In this document: positions 24,903 through 26,643 of the stretch, piece after piece
Layout of the letters: each line of letters begins with the position of its first letter
How positions within the stretch are numbered: position 1 is the stretch's first letter
Assembly (NCBI GenBank): GCA_016191995.1
Contig: JACPVA010000178.1
Span: forward strand, 1 to 55,046
Source: Burkholderiales bacterium
GTDB lineage: Bacteria; Pseudomonadota; Gammaproteobacteria; Burkholderiales; Burkholderiaceae_C
Direction of reading: 5' to 3'
Length of the DNA: 55,046 bases
Notes under the pieces: generated by a model
Databases searched by the model: none
What the model saw: only the letters and a program-made list of their open reading frames with translations
What the model was told of the DNA's origin: nothing
Translations under genes and position numbers: made by a program

Positions 24903-26060
<1,158 letters not shown>

Positions 26061-26068
26061 TCACATTC

Positions 26069-26077
26069 TGATACAGT
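26069..26077 (+). promoter_or_regulatory. Candidate extended -10 promoter for the hemB-hemJ intergenic RNA
   Basis: TGATACAGT reads as an extended -10 element (TGn followed by TACAGT). No good -35 is seen 17 bases upstream, which extended -10 promoters tolerate. A start near 26084 would give an RNA of about 110 bases ending at the terminator at 26195. Confidence 0.4.
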
Positions 26078-26083
26078 GATCAG

Positions 26084-26195
26084 CGGGTGACGGCCGCGAG
26101 GCCCGAGCCCCCTGCTTTTCCTCCCTGAGCAGGTGCCTTGTTGCACGACAGCGATGAGGCTTGCAGGCCCCGGCTCCCGCCGGGGCCTCTTTTTT
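26084..26195 (+). ncRNA. Candidate structured small RNA or attenuated leader upstream of hemJ
   Basis: Three stem-loops follow one another. Stem 1 pairs CCTGCT (26111-26116) with AGCAGG (26128-26133), and its 11-base loop contains CCTCCC, an anti-Shine-Dalgarno motif. Stem 2 pairs GCCTT (26135-26139) with GAGGC (26156-26160). Stem 3 is a perfect intrinsic terminator. GAGGCCC at 26098-26104 could also pair with GGGCCTC in the terminator, so an antiterminated form is possible. No convincing protein frame explains the region. It could be a trans-acting sRNA or a hemJ leader. It matches no RNA family that I recognise. Confidence 0.5.
26165..26195 (+). terminator. Intrinsic terminator between hemB and hemJ
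   Basis: Ten-base-pair stem, left arm 26165-26174 and right arm 26179-26188, with a TCCC tetraloop, then C and six T residues (26190-26195). It points along the plus strand, yet no plus-strand protein gene precedes it: hemB runs the other way. It must therefore end a short RNA or attenuate hemJ, whose ATG is only 20 bases further. Confidence 0.85.
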
Positions 26196-26214
26196 CGCCG
26201 CCCATAATGCCCGC

Positions 26215-26643
26215 ATGAGCACCGGCTACCTGTGGGTCAAGGCCTTCCACATCGTCTTCGTCGCCGCCTGGTTCGCGGGGCTGTTCTACCTGCCGCGGCT
26301 GTTCATCAACCTGGCGCTGGTACCCGCCGACAGCCACGCCGAGCGCGAGCGGCTGCTGCTGATGGCGCGCAAGCTGTACCGCTTCATGAACCTGCTGATG
26401 CTGCCGGCGGTCGCGCTCGGGCTGTGGCTGTGGCTGGGCTACGGGATAGGTGGCGGCTGGATGCATGCCAAGCTCGCGCTGGTGCTCGTCGTGATCGGCT
26501 ACCACGAGGCCTGCCGGCGGCTGCTGCGGCGCTTCGAGGCGCTCGGCAACCGCCACGGCCACCGCTGGTACCGCGTGTTCAACGAGCTGACGGTGCTGCT
26601 GTTCGCCGCCATCGTCGTGCTGGTGGTCGTCAAGCCGTTTTGA
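26215..26643 (+). CDS. hemJ: HemJ-type protoporphyrinogen IX oxidase (CopD/UPF0093 family)
   Basis: A 142-residue membrane protein with four hydrophobic segments. VKAFHIVFVAAWFAGLFYLPRL holds the conserved His of HemJ, and MHAKLALVLV ahead of GYHEACRR holds the essential Lys and the second His. HemJ oxidises protoporphyrinogen IX to protoporphyrin IX, the penultimate step of haem synthesis in bacteria lacking HemG or HemY. Placement beside hemB supports the call over a copper-resistance role. ATG 26215 lies 20 bases after a strong terminator, so a downstream promoter or readthrough is needed for expression. Confidence 0.88.
   Translation: MSTGYLWVKAFHIVFVAAWFAGLFYLPRLFINLALVPADSHAERERLLLMARKLYRFMNLLMLPAVALGLWLWLGYGIGGGWMHAKLALVLVVIGYHEACRRLLRRFEALGNRHGHRWYRVFNELTVLLFAAIVVLVVVKPF

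Follow-up and report, generated by a model that had tools for sequence, protein, structure and literature searches.

The window, that is, the whole stretch of 55,046 nucleotides analysed here, carries two divergent haem genes. hemB lies on the minus strand at 24903-25907, with a putative TTG start at 25907, and hemJ on the plus strand at 26215-26643, with a putative ATG start. Between them, at about 26084-26195 of the plus strand, there is a real, free-standing small-RNA gene. The first-pass annotation had proposed for this place a short structured RNA with transcription of its own and an exposed anti-Shine-Dalgarno loop. That proposal is supported, and the structure is conserved together with hemB and hemJ. 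We establish the anatomy of the gene, its conservation, covariation, promoter boxes and neighbours by comparison of sequences.

The promoter is an extended -10 box, TGATACAGT, at 26069-26077 (+), recognized by its sequence and by its relatives. Its TACAGT starts 48 bases 5´ of CCTCCC, and transcription is predicted to begin at about 26083-26085. The resulting RNA of about 112 nt, with a predicted 5´ end and a 3´ end at the T run, consists of plus-strand hairpins. Hairpin H1 (26085-26110) is capped by the tetraloop GCGA (26096-26099). Hairpin H2 (26111-26133), defined by fold and covariation, presents the loop UUCCUCCCU (26118-26126), unpaired with a probability of about 1.0, in which the anti-Shine-Dalgarno sequence CCUCCC occupies 26120-26125. 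Hairpin H3 (26135-26160), defined by fold and relatives, has 10 bp in the predicted fold and contains the conserved GACAGC at 26147-26152. The intrinsic terminator with its T run (26165-26195), found by folding and by a terminator scan, is formed by 10 pairs and the 4-base loop UCCC at 26165-26188; the next bases are C and six T. There are 3 terminator-like sites in 3 kb, 1.1 being expected from shuffles. As a whole, 26069-26207 folds to -66.1 kcal/mol (z -3.74), and 0 of 200 shuffles fold as well.

The extended -10 box, the second stem and the 10-bp terminator with six T had all been named in the first-pass annotation and are in place. The 11-base loop with CCUCCC that it described is indeed exposed, but its size depends on the fold: the best one has a 7-bp stem and a loop of 9 bases, which grows to 11 when the closing U-G pair is opened. 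Finally, GAGGCCC (26098-26104) had been read as a partner of the terminator arm. Such pairing is possible over 7 bases, but GAGGCCC is also the 3´ side of H1, and the pairing is not conserved (see below), so that its role as a switch is disfavoured.

Membership in RF02837 and conservation

A covariance-model search matches Rfam family RF02837 (anti-hemB) to 26109-26195 (+), with 56.8 bits at a curated cut-off of 49.5, an E-value of 1.4e-12 and the full model (1-81) covered. It is the single match of a genome-wide search in the window's genome. The neighbour that gives the family its name is present as well: hemB is on the minus strand, starts about 200 bases before the match and is transcribed away from it. 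The window RNA is thus a new member of a known family, and the proposed Rfam search has overturned the earlier statement that no known family could be recognized. The match spans hairpins 2-4 only; H1 and the promoter are added by the present analysis, which gives the RF02837 small RNA four hairpins in its predicted transcript. The window's copy of this small RNA, previously without annotation, now has a name, ends, a promoter and a structure.

The homologue in Burkholderia cenocepacia is ncS04, given as 105 nt in Table 1 of PMC5688073. Its 3´ end was mapped by RACE and dRNA-seq, it was seen on Northern blots, and Hfq binding or co-purification was described (PMC5688073, PMC4603805). Table 2 of PMC5688073 gives no significant change of its expression across 7 conditions. 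A survey of B. pseudomallei lists it too (PMC3521395). The identifier RF02837 itself, used as a search string, was not found in the literature searched. With RF02837, also known as Burkholderia RNA 7 or ncS04, the window RNA shares a terminator of its own, the CCUCCC loop, a length of about 105-112 nt and the position next to hemB. Although the family is named for Burkholderia, its matches reach far wider.

At a threshold of E <= 0.001, RF02837 was found in 20 of 21 genomes of the window's genus and in 126 of 150 genomes of its family (117 over the curated cut-off). The order sample gave 67 of 80 genomes (61 over cut-off); it includes two genomes from the window's family, both among the 67. 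The class sample gave 124 of 274 (14 over cut-off), with two of its three genomes from the window's family among the matches. Within the family, 111 places from 93 genomes were read, which leaves out 33 of the 126 genomes with a match. They comprise 91 best matches, one per genome, and 20 lower ones; two of the latter come from genomes whose best match is not among the 111. hemB stands divergently upstream and hemJ downstream at 74 places (one of them, L094, a lower match), hemB only at 7, hemJ only at 2, and neither gene at 28 (9 best and 19 lower matches). The 83 copies beside hemB and/or hemJ are referred to below as linked, or window-type.

All 83 linked copies carry the CCUCCCU loop, and 13 alignment columns are invariant. 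Of these copies, 82 have a TAnnnT box, most often at one of two tightly defined distances from the loop, as compared with 23 of 83 in a control stretch, and TGn precedes the box in 73. The complete pattern TGnTAnnnT occurs upstream in 73 of 83, with a shuffle mean of 4.3. With its extended -10 box kept, the linked RNA therefore appears to be transcribed as an independent unit.

The alignment of relatives proposed in the first-pass annotation also speaks for the stems. Covariation was scored on the named structure for H2 and H3, folding was done per sequence, and the terminator lay outside the covariation test. In the linked copies 95.9% of the cells of H2 and H3 are paired, and every slid version pairs worse. 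Both-side changes occur in 48 cells, while shuffles average 17.1 and 0 of 500 reach as high. However, a single C-G to U-A exchange, which divides the linked set in two, accounts for 38 of the 48, so that the number of independent events is smaller. Further pair types in H2 and H3 are not above the shuffles (14 vs 12.3; 72 of 500 as high). RNAalifold, run on the 83-row alignment, gave hairpin 2 only, because the variable H3 and the terminator are poorly aligned.

Folding of single copies against mononucleotide shuffles (60 each) gave z below -1 for H1 in 77 of 82 linked copies and for H3 in 79 of 82, the window's own values being -1.0 and -4.2. L002, in which no -10 box was found, is left out of these 82-copy counts. 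The apical loops of H1 are mostly stable tetraloops (GCAA 24, CUUG 17, GCGA 10 and UUCG 9, n=82). H3 carries the motif UGACAGC in 68 of 82 copies; the window reads CGACAGC.

In several family drafts (for example G010:C2, G071:C41, G132:C3 and G146:C51) the contig ends at 7-8 kb from the small RNA. This constant distance suggests a repeat, perhaps an rRNA operon.

Neighbours and promoters outside the family

Within the order, 28 of 30 fetched loci from outside the family were readable; the other two were dropped, the H2 motif not having been found by script. hemB lies on the left and engB on the right at 22 of the 28, engB on the left at 3, hemB only at 1, and neither gene at 2. Outside the order, 60 class loci with 70 places were fetched down the score list, one being skipped; they stand for 60 of the 122 genomes with a match in other families. 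polA and/or engB adjoin the RNA at 47 of these 60 (both 19, engB only 18, polA only 10). hemB was beside 0 of 60, but 40 of the loci hold < 1.3 kb, and absences of neighbours there mean little. In the window's family engB or polA was found at 0 of 111 places, each 2-4 kb long, and neither gene was found in the window, the genome's own engB being on contig C19. Since engB takes hemJ's place in the order and polA/engB are the neighbours outside it, and since 73 of 75 hemJ loci have no Shine-Dalgarno-like motif (see below), the earlier idea that the RNA links haem supply with translation is unsupported.

Before the RNA we searched for the strict box pair (A/G)AACT-N-GTC, a putative sigma-E-like promoter. 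It occurs at 47 of 70 class places (shuffle mean 0.4, maximum 3) and at 8 of 28 order loci, as compared with 1 of 83 window-type copies. A wider version of the pair is found in 26 of 28 order loci, 51 of 69 class places (one of the 70 was dropped, its H2 motif not having been found by script) and 1 of 83 window-type copies, with shuffle means of 0.5, 1.0 and 1.2; these wider counts are not blind, because the pattern was set after reading the order-level sequences.

When named genomes were scanned for a sigma-E box together with hairpin 2, 58 loci came up, including those of Nitrosospira, Dechloromonas, Glaciimonas, Ectothiorhodospira and Steroidobacteraceae; as both elements were required, these loci cannot show the frequency of the promoter. 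Their neighbours are hemB and engB at 24, polA and engB at 15, engB only at 10, polA only at 3, hemB only at 3, and none of these at 3. One locus of the type hemB-RNA-engB, proteobacterial in kind, is on a contig titled Chitinophaga pinensis (L237). This is a Bacteroidota name, and the bin is probably mislabelled.

Among the RNAs that could be scored, a C-rich terminator loop occurs in 18 of 24 hemB-linked ones of the sigma-E type, 2 of 19 polA-linked and 2 of 81 window-type ones (the UCCC of the window included), and a C-rich H3 loop in 4 of 24, 4 of 19 and 1 of 81, respectively. A rule by which the older RNAs would have three C-rich loops fails on these scripted counts.

Two further observations concern copies in other settings. 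Six genomes (L149, L150, L151, L152, L165 and L166) have 2-4 related small RNAs in tandem, with spacings of roughly 150-340 bases; the arrays adjoin polA or engB in four of the six, and 13 of 16 copies have the strict sigma-E-like pair. In the window's family, for example in G087 (L004, L093-L097), there are extra RF02837 matches away from hemB and hemJ, and the total reaches six matches in one genome. The 28 unlinked places have the extended -10 pattern TGnTAnnnT upstream in 6 and the sigma-E-like pair in 1.

hemB, hemJ and the mode of action

hemJ starts 20 bases past the end of the RF02837 match. This proximity and the 7-base complementarity of GAGGCCC to the terminator would suit a leader of hemJ, with the terminator regulated and GAGGCCC as anti-terminator arm, as had been considered in the first-pass annotation. 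However, hemJ appears to be served by a promoter of its own. CATAAT at 26203-26208 (+), six bases before the ATG, is a -10-like box and the predicted separate promoter of a leaderless hemJ. By script, a box of this type lies 4-9 bases before the start codon of hemJ in 62 of 75 loci, the window included, the control being 385 of 3772 ATG codons in general; by eye, 10 of the remaining 13 read GATAAT at that place. A Shine-Dalgarno-like motif precedes hemJ in just 2 of the 75 loci, and the window is among the 73 without one. hemJ therefore looks leaderless, without a ribosome-binding site for the RNA loop. The alternative pairing is not conserved either: over 82 loci, the longest complementarity between H1 and the terminator averages 5.76 in true pairs and 5.88 in swapped pairs. 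Moreover, none of the 28 order-level, 60 class-level and 58 named loci was found to have hemJ as a neighbour of the RNA. With an own -10 box and an unconserved switch pairing, attenuation of hemJ is disfavoured to the point of being hardly credible, and the idea loses its ground.

A second alternative is a regulator acting in cis on hemB, either through antisense overlap with the hemB leader or through pairing at the hemB ribosome-binding site. hemB is divergent upstream at 81 of 111 family places and at 23 of 28 order-level loci. In the window GGGAG precedes its TTG start, and the duplex with the loop reaches -11.0 kcal/mol, a value attained by 7% of random stretches, so an effect on hemB is possible in the window's lineage. 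Against this, a shared target at the hemB ribosome-binding site is not conserved, since in 81 loci hemB has a Shine-Dalgarno-like motif in 23 and looks leaderless in 31 (both in 1, neither in 28). hemB, then, looks leaderless in a good third of the relatives, with a -10 box few bases before its start codon. Its absence from the class loci outside the order, short as most of these are, points the same way, as do the 28 family places that lie away from both haem genes as far as 3-4 kb show: 25 of them keep CCTCCCT. We therefore consider regulation of hemB in cis very improbable as the main function.

What we propose with good confidence is a free-standing RF02837 RNA that acts in trans, pairs through its loop with Shine-Dalgarno regions, does not have hemB or hemJ as main targets and descends from a polA/engB locus. 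RNA polymerase with the housekeeping sigma factor would start at the extended -10 promoter, and the RNA's own terminator would end transcription after about 112 nt and four hairpins. With Hfq, the invariant CCUCCCU in the H2 loop would then pair with the Shine-Dalgarno regions of several mRNAs, and this pairing would lower their translation. Pairing with ribosome-binding sites in trans is the likeliest action, as far as action and targets can be inferred. hemB and hemJ would be neighbours by ancestry. In terms of position, the gene in the window would go back to an older polA/engB-locus RNA, one that other lineages would keep mostly behind a sigma-E-type promoter.

Exact complements of the loop at start codons are not in excess in the window's genome. 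GGGAGGA-N3-11-ATG occurs 23 times there and the reversed pattern 32 times; the corresponding numbers for CAGGGAGGA-N3-11-ATG are 0 and 1. A few of the 23 places stand before plausible genes; from their translations we presume L134 to be glmM-like, L129 sigma-factor-like and L127 oxidoreductase-like, all putative names. Across 40 family genomes a longer complement of the loop was matched 13 times, in 12 genomes, and its reversed pattern 0 times; 6 of these 13 matches are the small-RNA gene itself read backwards.

The missing excess would agree with a sponge or decoy, whose C-rich loop binds a protein or titrates Shine-Dalgarno-bearing RNAs while mRNAs are not regulated. The second conserved motif, UGACAGC in H3, and the 2-6 RF02837 matches of several family genomes would fit such a function too. 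Other small RNAs speak against it. sX13, an RNA with C-rich loops from the polA locus, represses mRNAs through G-rich motifs (PMC3771888), and for double-hairpin RNAs and S17 an action on ribosome-binding regions has been predicted or shown (PMC5688073 and PMC11722255). A sponge or decoy is thus improbable in our opinion, and repression in trans remains our preferred reading.

Locus history and related small RNAs

The neighbours form a chain from polA-engB through hemB-engB to hemB-hemJ, and hairpin 2 is nearly the same throughout, which makes descent from one locus likely. This suggests that the anti-hemB RNA descends from a polA/engB locus, the direction of the history being inferred. In the window's family the promoter was probably swapped for the housekeeping type.

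Similar positions are known from other small RNAs. In E. coli K-12, spf (Spot 42) follows polA in the same direction and yihA faces both (polA> spf> <yihA). YihA is the EngB homologue, with 47% identity, so the polA/engB order and orientation around Spot 42 are the same as in the polA-linked relatives of RF02837. The Rfam scans gave no Spot 42 match. The gene of ErsA is presumably also near polA. ErsA of Pseudomonas is driven by the ECF factor AlgU and is called a functional orthologue of Spot 42 (PMC8395346). The window RNA differs: no ECF box precedes it, and its place is elsewhere than at polA. What links these RNAs to Spot 42 is position, and to ErsA it is promoter type together with a presumed position; neither link is one of sequence.

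sX13 (RF02232, Xanthomonadaceae) shares a C-rich loop with the window RNA and the polA locus with its relatives. It is always downstream of polA in Xanthomonas, and its authors compared this locus with those of Spot 42 and the alpha-r7 RNAs (PMC3771888). The same source describes three C-rich loops for sX13 and an action independent of Hfq. The window RNA has CCUCCC in H2 and UCCC in the terminator, and its H3 loop is not C-rich. RF02232 has no match in the window's genome at E 0.01. In the class sample it was found at 17 places in 12 of 274 genomes, and 5 of these places, in 3 genomes, are also RF02837 matches. Ten other places were read. Two are over the cut-off, with polA 162-163 bases upstream and no engB found; of the other eight, one adjoins both polA and engB, another engB, and six neither gene, these six possibly being chance matches.

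The Betaproteobacteria toxic small RNA RF02278, or double-hairpin RNAs (ncS27, bdhR1), and S17 of Bordetella have CU-rich stretches complementary to ribosome-binding sites (PMC5688073 and PMC11722255). They differ from the window RNA in having two hairpins, another sequence and other loci. The small-RNA locus does not match RF02278; the only match in the window's genome, with 63.5 bits, is on another contig (C13:3648-3709, L032).

A broader scenario, on which our judgement is evenly divided, would unite these RNAs. Anti-hemB and sX13, and probably ErsA and Spot 42 too, would come from one ancient gene at the polA/engB locus, and the RF02837 branch would go back to an RNA that was under sigma-E control and had the CCUCCC hairpin. 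hemB would have taken the place of polA as neighbour in betaproteobacteria; in the window's family an extended -10 box would have replaced the sigma-E promoter, engB would have been lost and hemJ gained. If this is true, an envelope-stress regulator became a housekeeping one. In a literature search combining these RNA names, with most subscription papers outside its reach, none of the papers that named several of them named anti-hemB, and as far as our searches show, the locus history and the promoter exchange are new.

The authors of the sX13 study asked in 2013 whether the polA locus elsewhere encodes small RNAs (PMC3771888). The loci gathered here provide many candidates, most of them with a sigma-E-like promoter. 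They also tie a family named for Burkholderia to the polA locus, so that one order offers a setting in which to study how a conserved small RNA exchanges its promoter.
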